64,000 nucleotides of DNA from positions 1 through 64,000 of the IMG/VR virus record IMGVR_UViG_3300032607_000303; one strand, 5' to 3'. This DNA comes from a virus. This document shows positions 13,892-63,100 of the stretch, one piece after another. Every line of letters starts with the position of its first letter. Position 1 is the stretch's first letter. The notes beneath the pieces are model-generated. The model had not been told where the DNA came from. It was given only the letters and a program-made list of their open reading frames with translations, and did no database searches. Made by a program: the position numbers and the translations under genes.

Positions 13892-14293
13892 CTAAAGTGT
13901 ACAGCCGCCAGATGAGCAGCCTTTTTCTTCTACCTCGGACAAAGCGTGTCCTGACGCACTGTTACTGTAATACTTACTCTTGATACCGCATTTTACACGA
14001 TAGAGCCATTCAGAAAACAATTCTTTTGCGCTAATTTTACGAGGCTTATCGTCATCAAATCTGCGATAGTAGTCTGCGCTAATACCTTGACCACAGAATT
14101 TCTGAAAGATGGCATACATATCTGTCATATCTTTCATTGGTACATCCCAAGCAATTTGGTATGAGTCTTTTACTTCTTCCAGATCAGGAGCAATAAACAC
14201 TGTCTTGTTACTTCCTGATGTTTTAATAACCACATAGTCACGAATCGGGTAAATACTGTTAGTTGTATTTCCTGCAATACTACTACTTTCTAC
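13892..14293 (-). CDS. nrdA: nrdA exon 2 (C-terminal part of ribonucleotide reductase alpha)
   Basis: Encodes the last 133 residues of NrdA. Read without a local start, it opens VESSSIAGNTTNSIYPIRD, which aligns with the SETSSQISNSTNGIEP region of class Ia enzymes. It continues with AWDVPMKDMTDMYAIFQKF, carries the radical-transfer tyrosine pair in KSKYYSN, and ends in GCSSGGCTL, the C-terminal redox cysteine pair. These elements are essential, so the upstream 749-residue reading frame alone cannot make active enzyme. An internal GTG at 14233 could start a fragment, but the in-frame codons upstream match NrdA and show that this is an exon. Confidence 0.88.
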   Translation of the reverse strand, partial: VESSSIAGNTTNSIYPIRDYVVIKTSGSNKTVFIAPDLEEVKDSYQIAWDVPMKDMTDMYAIFQKFCGQGISADYYRRFDDDKPRKISAKELFSEWLYRVKCGIKSKYYSNSASGHALSEVEEKGCSSGGCTL

Positions 14294-15503
14294 CGTTGTG
14301 TTCAGGACAGTTCGTTATGCTATCCCCGCTTTATTCAAGCTGCTGTATATTTCTATACAGACCAGACCATATCTTAATCTCGTGTGAGATTCTTAGCACT
14401 TCCACTCACTTGAGTGTACTCCATTTCTGGATGGTCGTTGAACCTTCTAGTGCCAATAGAACAGATTTTACAATAGAGTCAGTGTGAGGTATCCTTAAAA
14501 TACTTTTACCTTCTGACTCAGCTAAGACATTTTTTATCTTGTCTCTATTAGTAATAGCAAAAAGACTTGCACCATCTTCTAAGACATGTTGAATACCATC
14601 ATACTCTATAAAAATATTATAATCTGGTAAATAAAAATCAAAGAACGATCCTTTTACAAAATATTCCCTTATAAACTTTACCCCAAGGTCATTAAGTAAA
14701 ATTGCTAAATACTCTTCGTAAACCGATTTAGCTGAACCAAAACAATGCTTACACTTTCCACCTCTGTTTTTTAATGTCTGAAATTTTTCTGTAGTTTTAT
14801 GGCCACATTTTAAGCACTCAAATTCTGAAAATTTTGAACTGTTTATAAATGTAGAGGTTAGTCGATGCTCGCCAAACGGCATCTGCTTTAATTCTTCCTC
14901 TACAGACTCAACAGTCTTCCACGAACCGTAACCCTCTGAGTGCTCTGGGCATTTACTACCATTTACTACTGTGTTTCCGGTGTATCTAGTAAGAATACAG
15001 CCACATGCTAATTTTATTTCTATTAGCGACCTATCTCCGTACCCGTTATTTGCACTTATCAATTCAATATTATGTAAAGAAAGTTGTTGTTGCAATATTT
15101 CTTTAGTCCTAGTAAATAAACTTGGGCTACAAGACGGGCAGCTGATTATTTTGTTGTGGATTACATTCCCAACTGATCTTCTAAAAATAGTACCACATAC
15201 ATGTGCAAAGTATAATTCACTATCTTTGCCTTCGTATGTTTGATTTTCAACTAATTTTAGTGTATTTTCAGAAACTACAGAAACTCTTTCAGAAACTATT
15301 TCTACTGTTAATTTTTTACCCATATTTCTCCCTTTTAGTGAAGTCCTATAGGCACTAGCTTGGCTGCTGATTGTCCAATCTTCTGATTTTTAAGCATTCA
15401 CGCTCACCATTACTGGTCACGTTGTAGCTCAGAAGCTCTAAGGAGTTTCCAGCAATTCACAAAGTTTTTGCATCACTGTCACCAGTAAGCAGCCCATTTA
15501 TTT
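14294..15503 (-). ncRNA. Group I intron in nrdA
   Basis: A 1,210-nt self-splicing intron candidate. The 5' site follows a T in ATGCCT at 15504, and GCCT of the exon pairs with GGGC of the intron (P1 with the required U.G at the splice site). Conserved core segments are visible on the minus strand: P (GAATTGCTGGAAACTCC, 15442-15457 region), Q (GACAATCAGCAGCCAAGC, 15358-15375), R (GGTTCAACGACCATCC, 14429-14444) and S (AAGATATGGTC, 14365-14375). R and S pair through GACCAT/ATGGTC to form P7. The intron ends in a G at 14294. Joining 15504 to 14293 keeps frame and restores the NrdA sequence MP-VESSS. It carries a homing endonuclease gene whose 3' end overlaps R. Confidence 0.88.
14406..15323 (-). 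CDS. Intron-encoded homing endonuclease, Vsr-like (EDxHD) family
   Basis: A 305-residue protein inside the nrdA intron, start ATG after GGGAGAAAT. The N-terminal 200 residues contain several CxxC zinc-ribbon pairs (CPSC, CGC, CLKCGH, CKHC) likely used in DNA recognition. The C-terminal 100 residues match the PD-(D/E)xK fold of very-short-patch-repair-like endonucleases: an initial helix with ExYLA, FFDFYLPDYNIFIEYDG, QH, and RDKIKN. This group includes intron homing enzymes such as I-Bth0305I. The enzyme would cut intron-less nrdA alleles and spread the intron. Its last codons overlap the conserved R segment of the intron. Confidence 0.82.
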   Translation of the reverse strand: MGKKLTVEIVSERVSVVSENTLKLVENQTYEGKDSELYFAHVCGTIFRRSVGNVIHNKIISCPSCSPSLFTRTKEILQQQLSLHNIELISANNGYGDRSLIEIKLACGCILTRYTGNTVVNGSKCPEHSEGYGSWKTVESVEEELKQMPFGEHRLTSTFINSSKFSEFECLKCGHKTTEKFQTLKNRGGKCKHCFGSAKSVYEEYLAILLNDLGVKFIREYFVKGSFFDFYLPDYNIFIEYDGIQHVLEDGASLFAITNRDKIKNVLAESEGKSILRIPHTDSIVKSVLLALEGSTTIQKWSTLK

Positions 15504-17747
15504 AGGCATGAAAGCTTCTAGCACACTGTTACGCATACCAAACTCTTTAATCTCTTTACGCAAAGCTTCCCAATCATACATAAGCTTTTGCGGAGTTATA
15601 TTGTCTACTTCTTTACAGTATGTGTCAATAAGCAACCAACCATCTGAATATTTAGTTTTGTGAAACCACTCACATTTACCACGTTCTTTTGCCAAGCGCA
15701 CACTAGCTTTATGCAGAAAATAAGAGTGACGCTCTGCAACACGGTGTAGGTATGCTTTACTCATAAAACTCGTATAGTCAAAACCCCTCTGCGCTAAATC
15801 ATTAGCCAAATTTGTAATACCAACCCCTGCTGAACGTCTAGCATTAGATGTATATTTTAAATTAGGGAAAGGGTATTCCATAAGACTAATAACATTGTCC
15901 ACCATCTTCAATGCTCTGTAAGCCACTTCCTCATACTCTGAGTCTTTAACACGACCTACTACAATTGCTGCTAGATTACACAGACCAATCTCCCCACCTA
16001 CCTCACCCTCTACGTAAAGGTCTTCTACCGACCGATACCCTTTGGTTGGCAAGCCAATCTCTTGACAATTACCAGTTAGGATACCATTAAATATTCCCAT
16101 TCCACGTTTAGACTCCGTAAAGCAGTACGTGTCATCAGTTCTACCATCGTCAAATACACAATACACAATATCTGAATAAGTCTCACTGCTGTTAGGCAAA
16201 CTCCAATTAATCAAGCAGTCTCCACACAGTAGCTCAGAGGATGTTACTTGGCGAACAGTAAAATCTTCTTTGTTTTGAATATAGAATTTGTGTTGCTCTG
16301 TGCAACTAAGGTTAATACCTGATTGAAACTCTACACGAAGTAGCTTTCTTTTATTTCCAGTTTTACGTACAACTACATTAGACCATTCTTCACCATTCCA
16401 AATATCTACAGTAACATCACAAAGATCAGAAATATTTTTGTAACCTTTAAGAGTTAAAATTTTAGTCTCTGGTGCTACGCATAAGTTAGAAGAATAAATG
16501 ACATCCTTGAACGGAGTATGACGATTCATTTCCTGAATGTTATGCTCATACATGCGACCTGTTTCTTCTTGCACTCTCAAAAACTCTAGTACAAGCTTAC
16601 GGGCACTTACATACTCTCGCTTACCGTCTGATACTTCGTACTCATTGTACGCTTCTTCAAAGCCTGACGCAGAATACAATGCCTCATGCAGCTTAGGTGA
16701 AGTTTTATAGCTTACAAGCATCCATTGCTCATTGTTTGCTGCCTTCTTAGCCAGCAAAGGAGTATATCCAAAGCTATAGTCAATCCCGCCAATTTTGTTC
16801 TTAGCTACCGTCGTTGGGTGACGTAAACGCAGCAAAGTGAACACTTCAGGGTCTAGGCAGTTAAAGTGGATTGTAGCTGCTCCGCCTCTGCCACCTTGTA
16901 GGTTAGCGTGTACCGAGGCTTCTGTAGCACGATAGTAGGGAAGCTTTCCAGCATGTTTGATAGTGTTATTACGAACCCCATCGCCTTTGCTGCGCGTTTG
17001 TATAAAGCCACCAATCCCTGCACTAGCACATGTCATTGTATAAGCAATGTGATCGCCTGCTGCCAAACTCTTAGCATTGTCATTGCTCTTAAACACAGCA
17101 CAAGATGCGTAATTCATTTTGGGAGTTCCAAGATTTACAATGTTCGGCGTAGGAGCATTGATACGTCCTTCACTAAAATCTTTGTAGTAGCTCTCAACCT
17201 CTTTCATACGACTATTTCTAGGCTCATTAACGCATACACCTAAAGCCATGCGCAGCCATACAAATTGTGGGGATTCCAATACAATATTCTTTTCAACATC
17301 ACGAATAGAATATTTAGACGTAATCTGATGAACAACAGAATGAATGCTATTTAAGTCCTTTGTGTGATTAATAATTGTTTCAGCTACAGCTAGGTCTTCT
17401 GTTGAGTAGCCCATGTTAGACCACAGACCTTTACTGACCATGCTACTGTACATTGCAACAACTGTAGGGATTTTCTCATGCCCACCAAATGCTTGTTTGT
17501 AGATATCACCGATAAGCAAACGACCAGCCATCTTGAGGTGTGCTGTGTCTTCTTTCTCTGAGCAAGCCTGAATCATAGAGTTCTGCAAGTCTTGCGTTGT
17601 GCATTCGTCAGGGCATCTCTTGTATGCATCTCCTGCAATAGCAAACCAGTCTGCTCCTACAACTCCTGCCCACTCAGCCCAACGTGTCAATTTATTAGCA
17701 TCGAAATTAACAACATCTCCGTTACGCTTCTTAATATTAGAAATCAT
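15504..17747 (-). CDS. nrdA: nrdA exon 1 (ribonucleotide reductase alpha, with mini-intein)
   Basis: Encodes 748 residues, start ATG after AAAGGG. The N-terminus has an ATP-cone (KKRNGDVVNFDANKL). The catalytic barrel follows, with the conserved cysteine in NYASCAVF and the nucleotide site GGRGGAATIHFN. The active-site triad N-x-C-x-E is interrupted by an intein (16068-16481) directly before the radical cysteine. Downstream barrel parts follow (GEIGLCNLAAI, ARRSAGVGITNLA) up to NSVLEAFMP, where the intron begins; read-through stops after one more codon. After RNA and protein splicing the mature enzyme would be 743 residues (E. coli 761). It reduces ribonucleotides for phage DNA synthesis together with nrdB just downstream. 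Confidence 0.9.
16068..16481 (-). other. Mini-intein in NrdA (138 residues)
   Basis: An in-frame insertion between N-L and the catalytic C-Q-E of NrdA. It begins with Cys1 (CVAPETKILTLKGYKNI, block A with VAPETKI), has a block-B-like segment (LSCTEQHKFYI with the TxxH motif) and ends DTYCFTESKRGMGIFNGILTGN, typical blocks F and G, followed by Cys as the +1 nucleophile. The penultimate residue is Gly instead of the usual His. It is too short for an endonuclease domain. Precursor residues are 423-560. The +1 Cys is the thiyl-radical residue (E. coli C439), so splicing is needed for activity. Confidence 0.88.
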
Positions 17748-19193: not shown

Positions 19194-19754
19194 CTACAAC
19201 CTTTTCCCGTGGTCTTCAGTGTATCCAGCACCTGCACTGTTTAGCAATTCTACCATTTTTGACCGATACTTGATAGCCATTTCCAATGCGTCTTCGCCAA
19301 ACACCTTTATAGAGAAGGATTTGGTGCTTTGTCTGCCCTCTAGTGTTTGCCAAGACGCTCGCCAGTACATGTTTCCAAGTTTTTCACTGAGGGATACTCC
19401 GACAACACCTGAAGTATTATCAACCCTCTTTTTATGGTTTCGTGAGTTAAAGATAGGTTCTACTGCACGCAGATTACCTATGTTGTTATTCGACCTTACA
19501 CCATCTATGTGGTCAATTTGAAACCCCTCTGGGATATTCCCATTAAATATTTCCCATACGATCCTGTGTACACCAGTCAACCTTCCCTTAAATCGGACAA
19601 TAAAGTATTCGTGTACCTTATTGAACCCTCCTGCCTCGTCGCCAACTGAAACATTTATGTGTGAGCCAGAAGCCCCGCTACAAATCTCTCTATTCCAACG
19701 AAGGCAACTCTTACTACTCTCATCATAAAGAAACCAATCTTTGTATTTCCCCAT
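19194..19754 (-). CDS. Free-standing HNH-AP2 homing endonuclease (copy 1)
   Basis: A 186-residue protein. N-terminal DWFLYDESSKSCLRW is followed by an HNH_3 core: HRIVWEIFNGNIPEGFQIDHIDG, then NNIGNLRAV and NSRNHKK. The C-terminal part is an AP2-like DNA-binding domain (GVVGVSLSE...WRASWQ) ending in GAGYTEDHG. The same architecture occurs at 24062 and 31983. It overlaps the phosphoesterase stop as TAATG, placed cleanly between two genes, as is usual for selfish free-standing endonucleases. Confidence 0.85.
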   Translation of the reverse strand: MGKYKDWFLYDESSKSCLRWNREICSGASGSHINVSVGDEAGGFNKVHEYFIVRFKGRLTGVHRIVWEIFNGNIPEGFQIDHIDGVRSNNNIGNLRAVEPIFNSRNHKKRVDNTSGVVGVSLSEKLGNMYWRASWQTLEGRQSTKSFSIKVFGEDALEMAIKYRSKMVELLNSAGAGYTEDHGKRL

Positions 19755-25445: not shown

Positions 25446-25522
25446 TGGTGTCCCGAGTCAGACTTGAACTGACGACCAATCCCTTATGAGGGGAGTGCTC
25501 TGACCAACTGAGCTATCGGGAC
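25446..25522 (-). tRNA. tRNA-Met/Ile2 (anticodon CAT)
   Basis: A 77-nt cloverleaf on the minus strand: acceptor GTCCCGA/TCGGGAC, D-arm GCTC/GAGC, anticodon loop CTCATAA, T-arm GTCAG/CTGAC with TTCAAGT loop, discriminator A and encoded CCA. The first pair of the anticodon stem (C-T) is mismatched. CAT may be elongator Met, or Ile2 if C34 is modified to lysidine; the sequence alone does not decide. Confidence 0.92.
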
Positions 25523-60942: not shown

Positions 60943-61017
60943 GCCTTTATAGTTCAGTGATAGAATACGCCCTTTGTACGGGTGAGACGACAGTTTGATT
61001 CTAGTCTAGAGGCACCA
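60943..61017 (+). tRNA. tRNA-Thr-like (anticodon TGT) with bulged T-stem
   Basis: Acceptor GCCTTTA/TAGAGGC, D-stem GTTC/GAAT, anticodon stem CGCCC/GGGTG with loop TTTGTAC, CCA encoded after A. The T-stem pairs GACAG with CTAGTC only if one A is bulged. Could be a functional but relaxed tRNA or a decaying one. Confidence 0.6.
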
Positions 61018-61021
61018 CCAA

Positions 61022-61074
61022 TGTAAGCGAATCGGGTTGCAACCCTTGGGACACTGTGTTGTCTCTAGCTTACA
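61022..61074 (+). other. Structured element before the HNH gene
   Basis: TGTAAGC (61022-61028) pairs with GCTTACA (61068-61074) and encloses the perfect palindrome GGGTTGCAACCC (61034-61045). The element begins right after the tRNA-Thr-like gene and ends 26 bases before the HNH start. Confidence 0.5.
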
Positions 61075-61100
61075 CCTATATTAATCCGCACAGGGATAAA

Positions 61101-61856
61101 ATGAAAATAGCAACAAAAGAAAGCGTAATCGCATCTATACTTAGGTTTGTAACAGAAAATAGTAGGTACCCAACTAAGACAGATTGTAGGGATACTGACT
61201 GGTTATACAGTGCGCAAACAAATCGGCGTGTAGTAGGTTCTGTGCAAGAGATGAATATACTCTCTGATTTTCTTCTTAGCAACCCACTACCAGATAACCC
61301 TAAAAGATTTTGCAAGCAATGTGGCAAGGAAATAGACAATAAAGCAAGGGTATTTTGTAGTAGGTCGTGCTCTGCGAAGTTCAATAATAATACAGAGAAA
61401 AAGATAAAGTCAACTCAGAAGATTGAAGTAATTGATAAAGTCCGTGTTGTAAAAGAAGTTGTTGACCTCGGAAACTGCGTACATTGCAGTAATAAATTGA
61501 CAGCTAGGAATACGGTATTTTGTTCTACTGCTTGTGCGTCAGATCACAGATTAGCACATAGTATTCAAAATTGGTTAAGCAGTGGTAAAGTCCATAATGG
61601 AAACCAAGCTATCCGCAGCTATTTAAAACTCTTAGTGGGGGATAGCTGCTCTGTTTGTGGTATCTTAGAACATAACGGTAAACCTATAACCTTTGAAGTT
61701 GACCACATCAGTGGCGACAGTACGGACGATAGATATGAAAATGTCTGTCTTATTTGTCCAAATTGCCACTCTCAAACAGACACCTACAAAGGTAGAAACA
61801 GAGGTAACGGAAGGCACTCAAGGGCGCAGCGTTATCGTGAAGGAAAGAGTTATTAA
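61101..61856 (+). CDS. HNH endonuclease with N-terminal zinc fingers
   Basis: A 251-residue protein starting at ATG 61101 after CAGGGATAAA. Two FCxxxC-type fingers are present (FCKQCGKEI...VFCSRSCSAKF; CVHCSNKL...VFCSTACASDH). The C-terminal HNH domain is SCSVCGILEHNG, ITFEVDHISGD, and NVCLICPNCHSQTDTYKG. The fold is that of selfish free-standing HNH enzymes. It lies among tRNA genes between the terminase genes and is flanked by structured DNA on both sides. Confidence 0.83.
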   Translation: MKIATKESVIASILRFVTENSRYPTKTDCRDTDWLYSAQTNRRVVGSVQEMNILSDFLLSNPLPDNPKRFCKQCGKEIDNKARVFCSRSCSAKFNNNTEKKIKSTQKIEVIDKVRVVKEVVDLGNCVHCSNKLTARNTVFCSTACASDHRLAHSIQNWLSSGKVHNGNQAIRSYLKLLVGDSCSVCGILEHNGKPITFEVDHISGDSTDDRYENVCLICPNCHSQTDTYKGRNRGNGRHSRAQRYREGKSY

Positions 61857-62401: not shown

Positions 62402-63100
62402 ATGACAGAAGTAAAGGTAGGAATGAAATTCACCAAGTTAACCGTAGTTGCTCCAGCAGGTAAGAGTAAATGGTTATGTTCATGTGACTGCGGAAACGAG
62501 AAAGTACTCTGTTCATCAATGCTGACATCTAACCATAATAAAAGTTGTGGTTGCTCTGTAGATAGACATGGTATGCGTTACCATCGCGCTTACAAGAGTT
62601 GGCTCCACATGAAACAGCGTTGCACTAATCCAGAAAACCTAGATTACCCTAATTACGGTGGTCGTGGTATTACAGTACATGAAGATTTTGCTAAATCGTT
62701 TCCAGTATGGCTTGCAGCAATTGGTGAGCGACCAGAAGGCCGTTACAGCATCGGACGTATTGACAATAATCTTGGTTATACTTACGGAAATATTCGATGG
62801 GAAGATGATGAACAACAATCTCGTAACCATTGCAAATCCGTAACAAATAAGACTGGGATTGTTGGAGTTGTCTATCGAGAGCGAAACATAAATGGAGGAA
62901 TTTACTGCATTTGGGTAGCTCAATGGGCCAACGAAACTAATAAAAAGAAATCAAAAGACTTTAGTTGTAATAAGTATGGTTACGATGTAGCCAAGCAACT
63001 TGCTATTGATTATCGAAATAAAATGATGGTAGAGCTAAACATCCGAGGATTTGATTACGCAGAATCTCACGGTAGTGTAAAGGAGATTTTGAATGGCTAA
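62402..63100 (+). CDS. AP2-domain homing endonuclease-like protein
   Basis: A 232-residue protein. The N-terminus has zinc-type CSCDCGNE and CGCSVDRHG with SWLHMKQRCTNP, a pattern of phage AP2/HNH-associated proteins. The middle YGGRGITVHEDF...GRIDNNLGYTYGNIRW resembles a degenerate nuclease core, and the C-terminal AP2-like region includes GIVGVVYRERN and WVAQW, ending in DYAESHG. It overlaps the terL start by eight bases (ATGGCTAA) and its ribosome site is hidden in a stem. Activity as nuclease is inferred from family resemblance. Confidence 0.75.
   Translation: MTEVKVGMKFTKLTVVAPAGKSKWLCSCDCGNEKVLCSSMLTSNHNKSCGCSVDRHGMRYHRAYKSWLHMKQRCTNPENLDYPNYGGRGITVHEDFAKSFPVWLAAIGERPEGRYSIGRIDNNLGYTYGNIRWEDDEQQSRNHCKSVTNKTGIVGVVYRERNINGGIYCIWVAQWANETNKKKSKDFSCNKYGYDVAKQLAIDYRNKMMVELNIRGFDYAESHGSVKEILNG

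Follow-up and report, generated by a model that had tools for sequence, protein, structure and literature searches.

The window analysed here is a stretch of 64,000 nt that forms part of a metagenome-derived virus record of 80,845 bases. On its minus strand lies nrdA, the gene for the large subunit of a class Ia ribonucleotide reductase, which is found in two exons (Table 1). Of 523 profile positions, exon 1 runs to position 388 and exon 2 starts at 391, two parts that are adjoining in the NrdA barrel according to Pfam and NCBIfam. The last codons of exon 1, which end at 15504, are TTC ATG CCT, and exon 2 opens from 14293 with GTA GAA AGT AGT AGT. Between the codons CCU (Pro) and GUA (Val) stands an insert of 1,210 nt, corresponding to the minus strand from 15503 to 14294. 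Given that this length is not a multiple of three and that stops occur inside the insert, the nrdA frame is regained by removal of the insert, which joins two whole codons. The joined, insert-free NrdA shows 67% identity over 741 residues with the uninterrupted NrdA of two IMG/VR phages, L111 and L112. In these phages the protein has no insert and reads AYMP/VESSSIAGNTTNSIYP (the slash marks the junction throughout), continuous across the predicted junction MP/VESSS; hence the splice junction is known to the exact nucleotide, as is the Val that unusually follows Pro. At the DNA level the junction of L111 reads ATGCCT/GTCGAA. Furthermore, the codon is uninterrupted in all 80 nrdA loci recovered by a profile of the junction region, where the residue after that Pro is S (63 loci), C (9), N (4), V (2), A (1) or G (1). 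The initial annotation had described a NrdA frame that breaks after FMP and restarts at VESSS 1,210 nt further on. The coordinates match this description, the empty site of L111 and L112 agrees with it, and the fused protein, whose alignment with NrdA homologues had been proposed as a check, runs uninterrupted through the junction when set against L111.

The insert is a group I intron. Helices P1 through P9.2 can all be drawn in its RNA and the core segments P, Q, R and S, already picked out in the first reading, were all recovered in the drawn structure and in the Rfam halves, together with the U.G pair at the 5' site (GCCU/A...GGGC) and the terminal intron G (G14294). Between P7 and P3 are found P7.1 (UCCA-GAAA-UGGA) and P7.2 (CACUC-AAGU-GAGUG), which both covary and whose presence points to subgroup IA2 for the nrdA intron.

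Table 1. Features of the interrupted nrdA gene, with positions in the window (slash, splice junction).
Feature	Position	Strand	Evidence or remark
nrdA exon 1, class Ia ribonucleotide reductase large subunit	15504..17747	-	PF02867 3.6e-71, TIGR02506 1.3e-106; ends ...AFMP, holds intein
Mini-intein, 138 aa, CVAPETKIL...NGILTGN/C, without endonuclease domain	16068..16481	-	TIGR01445 E 4.4e-7, over cut-off
Group I intron, 1,210 nt, subgroup IA2-like (P7.1 and P7.2)	14294..15503	-	Rfam halves, covariation, covariance model, empty site
P1: exon GCCU 15507-15504, guide GGGC 15495-15492, U.G at splice site	15492..15507	-	drawn structure, sequence
In-frame stop (CCT AAA TAA) directly after 5' splice site		-	sequence
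P2 hairpin, GUGA loop	15470..15490	-	drawn structure, sequence
5' strands of P3 (15464-15458), P4 (15454-15449) and P5 (15444-15442)	15442..15464	-	drawn structure, covariation
P5 3' strand; Q segment AATCAGCAGCC 15372-15362 (P4 3' strand and P6 CC); P6a 5' strand CTAGTG 15358-15353	15353..15376	-	
Repeat CACTAAAAGG	15331..15340	-	9/10 copy of CACTAGAAGG (14452-14443)
Shine-Dalgarno-like AAAAGGGAG of intron ORF	15328..15336	-	sequence
Homing endonuclease ORF, 305 aa, in P6 of intron	14406..15323	-	PHROG_559
P6a 3' strand 14452-14447; P6 GG; R segment GTTCAACGACCA 14443-14432 (P7 5' strand GACCA)	14432..14452	-	inside ORF 3' end
P7.1 14431-14420 (GAAA loop); P7.2 14416-14403 (with ORF stop TGA 14408-14406)	14403..14431	-	
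P3 3' strand 14398-14392; P8 14391-14376; S segment AAGATATGGTC 14375-14365 (P7 3' strand TGGTC); P9 14360-14343 (GAAA loop)	14343..14398	-	
P9.2-like hairpin 14325-14305; terminal G14294	14294..14325	-	drawn structure, sequence
nrdA exon 2 (VESSS...GGCTL stop)	13892..14293	-	PF02867 profile positions 391-522, E 2.7e-10

At the gathering threshold, an Rfam search of the whole window did not find the intron. With a permissive search of a 1.6-kb stretch, RF00028 matched the 3' half at 33.7 bits (E 1.9e-6) and the 5' half at 25.2 bits (E 7e-4), each below the gathering score of 50 because the 0.9-kb ORF splits the intron. The covariance search suggested by the initial annotation thus yields group I matches, though none at the Rfam default. 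A separate covariance model, for which seven other phage introns were used and the window sequence was left out, scored the 3' half at 101.8 bits (E 5.2e-22). When the nrdA intron was aligned with seven phage introns, ORFs removed, 95.4% of the cells were paired under the drawn structure and changes on both sides were seen in 31 of 50 pairs, compared to 34-43% of cells paired in a control with slid partners. Across the aligned introns P6 is built with C-G, G-C and U-A pairs, and one pair of P7 is C-G in the nrdA intron and U-A in the seven others. This C-G pair is also present in three further introns near EDxHD-type genes. Both intron halves match phage introns by blastn as well, for example those in KIL1 nrdB, in the Machias RNA polymerase gene and in the DNA polymerase genes of phiKZ and nACB1. 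Hence the RF00028 matches on both halves, the independent covariance model, the covariation and the empty site in L111 and L112 all bear out the group I assignment made at first reading, and the scores of the first two leave no room for a chance match. A match to group II domains D1-D4 (E 2) falls in a P5 extension common to several group I introns and was rejected as chance. The rare GACCA/TGGTC version of P7 also occurs in other introns beside EDxHD-type genes (L090 1017..1110, L097 1565..1674 and L109 1692..1787).

The 3' end of the ORF was also said to overlap the R segment, and this is the case. Indeed, the ORF contains R and ends in P7.2, its last 13 codons encoding R, P7.1 and part of P7.2, while the P6a 3' strand lies just upstream, still within the ORF. 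Such a layout could belong to a degenerate intron with a fold that is recognisable and a splicing that is impaired, nrdA being then a pseudogene; one U.U mismatch in P3, a weak P10 (~ 2 bp) and the overlap of the 305-codon ORF with the core would fit this explanation. We regard it as very unlikely, since the only change in P7 is compensated on both strands, P4, P6, P7, P8 and P9 are intact, nrdB and the two exons keep open, conserved reading frames, and an overlap of ORF and core is also found in pYD6-A and several other phage introns. It is likewise highly improbable that the insert stays unspliced, now or always, and that NrdA is assembled from two separately produced parts. Such genes in pieces are established for mobE in the nrdA of Aeromonas phage Aeh1, as quoted in PMC3653736 and PMC7344957, but the ribozyme here is complete and covarying with exact junctions, and exon 2 has no nearby start, the first in-frame one being a GTG 20 codons in that would cost the protein a conserved loop. 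Finally, the record is metagenome-derived and no second copy of the exact intron was found, but an assembly chimera that joined another phage's intron into this nrdA is extremely improbable given that both junctions are codon-exact and that the guide GGGC, unlike that of a random chimera, fits the GCCU of this nrdA.

The repeat formed by CACTAAAAGG and CACTAGAAGG (CACTA[A/G]AAGG; p about 0.02, uncorrected) is suggestive, though no more than that, of a scar left by the entry of the ORF into a once short P6a hairpin. Such a repeat was not clearly seen in the other introns tested.

The protein encoded by the intron starts with zinc-ribbon modules, with Cys/His pairs between aa 41 and 194, and continues with a nuclease like those of Vsr and I-Bth0305I. 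It is a member of PHROG_559 (E 2e-38), a family labelled 'HNH' there. For TerL introns of Bastillevirinae, PHROG_559 enzymes with a VSR fold have been reported (PMC11878797), and the family member in phage KSAP7 is annotated as 'group I intron-associated VSR homing endonuclease'. Searches with the sequence of the ORF gave little: the match of the nuclease to 3R3P was not significant (E 0.36), a single-sequence search of the PDB returned only AbaSI (E 0.21), a zinc-ribbon-led profile search returned nothing useful, and when the ORF alone was used to look for its closest relatives, the loci retrieved were all viral and distant. An AlphaFold2 model was built from 52 sequences (pLDDT 85, pTM 0.59). 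With Foldseek, the best solved structures were the catalytic domain of I-Bth0305I (3R3P) and, slightly lower, E. coli Vsr (1VSR), both at a probability of 1.00, with E-values of 0.007-0.09 that are modest because the nuclease domain makes up about one third of the chain. The fold search thus settled a relationship that single-sequence and profile searches had not. On the basis of this model, it is well supported that the nuclease would work like I-Bth0305I. Furthermore, ten family members show no variation at E203, D229, E240, H246, D261, K264 or in the zinc-ribbon cysteines. The zinc ribbons and the Vsr-like nuclease proposed from the letters are supported by the family membership, the fold match and the invariant Cys pairs. 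Its more specific assignment to the EDxHD enzymes is probable; the invariance of E203, D229, H246 and D261 speaks for it, but the aligned 3R3P sequence does not have D and H at the positions of D229 and H246, possibly as a mutant construct.

Three further genes in the window are likely free-standing genes of endonuclease type: 19754..19194 on the minus strand (HNH_3 and AP2) and, on the plus strand and close to tRNA genes, 61056..61856 (HNH) and 62402..63100 (AP2-domain). A tRNA at 60943..61014 (+), directly before the HNH gene, was found by Rfam with 46 bits and an anticodon region TTTGTAC, ARAGORN reporting none there; a tRNA-Met at 25446..25522 (-) was found by ARAGORN and not by Rfam.

The initial annotation was right about the intron but incomplete as to how nrdA is split, as it missed the mini-intein in exon 1. 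The ends of the intein fit, with splicing blocks at both ends and an Asn before Cys+1, and its site, NL/CQEIGLP, is directly before the presumed catalytic Cys. The +1 Cys is equivalent to the catalytic Cys439 of E. coli NrdA. The NrdA of L111 has no intein; in L195, L200 and L214, which are close relatives, the intein is present and the intron absent. Similar inteins occupy the same site in Vibrio phage ICP1 and at 35 loci of IMG/VR. For many of these loci the match covers no more than the N-terminal 96 intein residues as a single block, as would be expected if a longer insert came next. Compared with the related intein of ICP1 nrdA, the one described here is shorter. In the DNA of another IMG/VR phage nrdA with an intein at this site (L011 2384..6017), an ORF resembling a GIY-YIG nuclease is found.

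Introns and inteins are classically found in the ribonucleotide reductase genes of phages (PMC3653736). As here, the nrdA of Pectobacterium phage CB7 holds an intein together with a group I intron, whose splicing was shown by RT-PCR (PMC7344957) and whose core aligns and covaries with that of the window intron; however, the CB7 intron lies earlier in the gene and comes with an HNH enzyme, and the CB7 intein has a LAGLIDADG domain. In Pseudoalteromonas phage pYD6-A (NC_020849, PYDG_00065/00066), a class Ia nrdA also carries a group I intron whose ORF overlaps R at its end and encodes a PHROG_559 nuclease (E 4.8e-51), but the two nucleases are distant in sequence (27-29% identity), the pYD6-A intron lies ~ 17 nt further downstream (MPCESSAV/FSNATNG) and its NrdA has no intein. 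The TerL-intron VSR endonucleases of Herelleviridae (KSAP7, Bastillevirinae; PMC11878797) share the family PHROG_559 and the intron setting, whereas their host gene is another one and their identity to the window nuclease is about 25-30%.

In the nrdE genes of Enterococcus phage Sw5 and Lactococcus phage AM9, the intron follows the Pro codon of the homologous loop (AP/TGS compared to MP/VES here, with Asn at that place in Sw5). These genes are of class Ib, however, and the Sw5 intron has an HNH ORF between R and S while the AM9 intron has none. Among 12 introns, P1-P2 of Sw5 is the most similar to that of the window intron (0 of 300 shuffles as high), and a joint origin with the Sw5 intron receives weak support (0.46) in a tree of the 5' core. 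In AM9, the gene immediately after nrdE is a free-standing one for a PHROG_559 nuclease (L016 2335..3855), and the ORF-less intron with its adjoining gene is possibly a case of collaborative homing. I-Bth0305I, the best fold match, is the EDxHD homing endonuclease of the recA intron of Bacillus phage 0305phi8-36 and is thus intron-encoded as well. It has its own DNA-binding region, in place of which the window nuclease carries the zinc-ribbon array.

Taken jointly, the locus very probably represents a mobile intron of group IA2 type that interrupts a phage nrdA at its phosphate-loop codons, with an ORF for a zinc-ribbon and Vsr/EDxHD homing endonuclease. After transcription, the RNA core would fold and guanosine would attack the U.G pair of P1 at CCU/A; judging from the structure and the intron-less relatives, the exons would be joined as ...AFMP-VESSS... 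The nuclease would be translated on the unspliced RNA from the AAAAGGGAG site and would probably cut, close to the conserved Pro codon, the nrdA of a co-infecting relative that lacks the intron, repair then copying the intron in. The homing activity is proposed by analogy, because no very close relative carrying this intron was found. The in-frame stop after the 5' splice site would bar exon-1 ribosomes from the intron. Moreover, the last 13 codons of the ORF are also ribozyme core, so that translation of the full ORF and splicing would be mutually exclusive on one RNA. Active NrdA would also require removal of the intein through protein splicing.

The nrdA intron is real and its kind is largely familiar among phage mobile elements. 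It offers a junction-exact case of a mobile intron of EDxHD type within a metabolic gene of a phage; a relative with an empty site exists, the change in P7 is compensated, and coding sequence serves at the same time as ribozyme core. Some interest also lies in the pairing of intron and intein and in the coincidence of sites between classes Ia and Ib. We can only tentatively propose that a single lineage of introns keeps to this substrate-loop codon in reductases of both classes, Ib (nrdE, in phages that infect Gram-positive bacteria) and Ia (nrdA here), swapping its endonuclease (HNH, none, EDxHD) on the way, and that both active-site loops of this NrdA are held by parasites, so that the enzyme would need RNA as well as protein splicing. 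The intein sits at the other active-site motif and the homologous codon of nrdE also hosts introns, which makes nrdA and nrdE a good test of whether introns and inteins follow conserved active-site codons in distant homologues.
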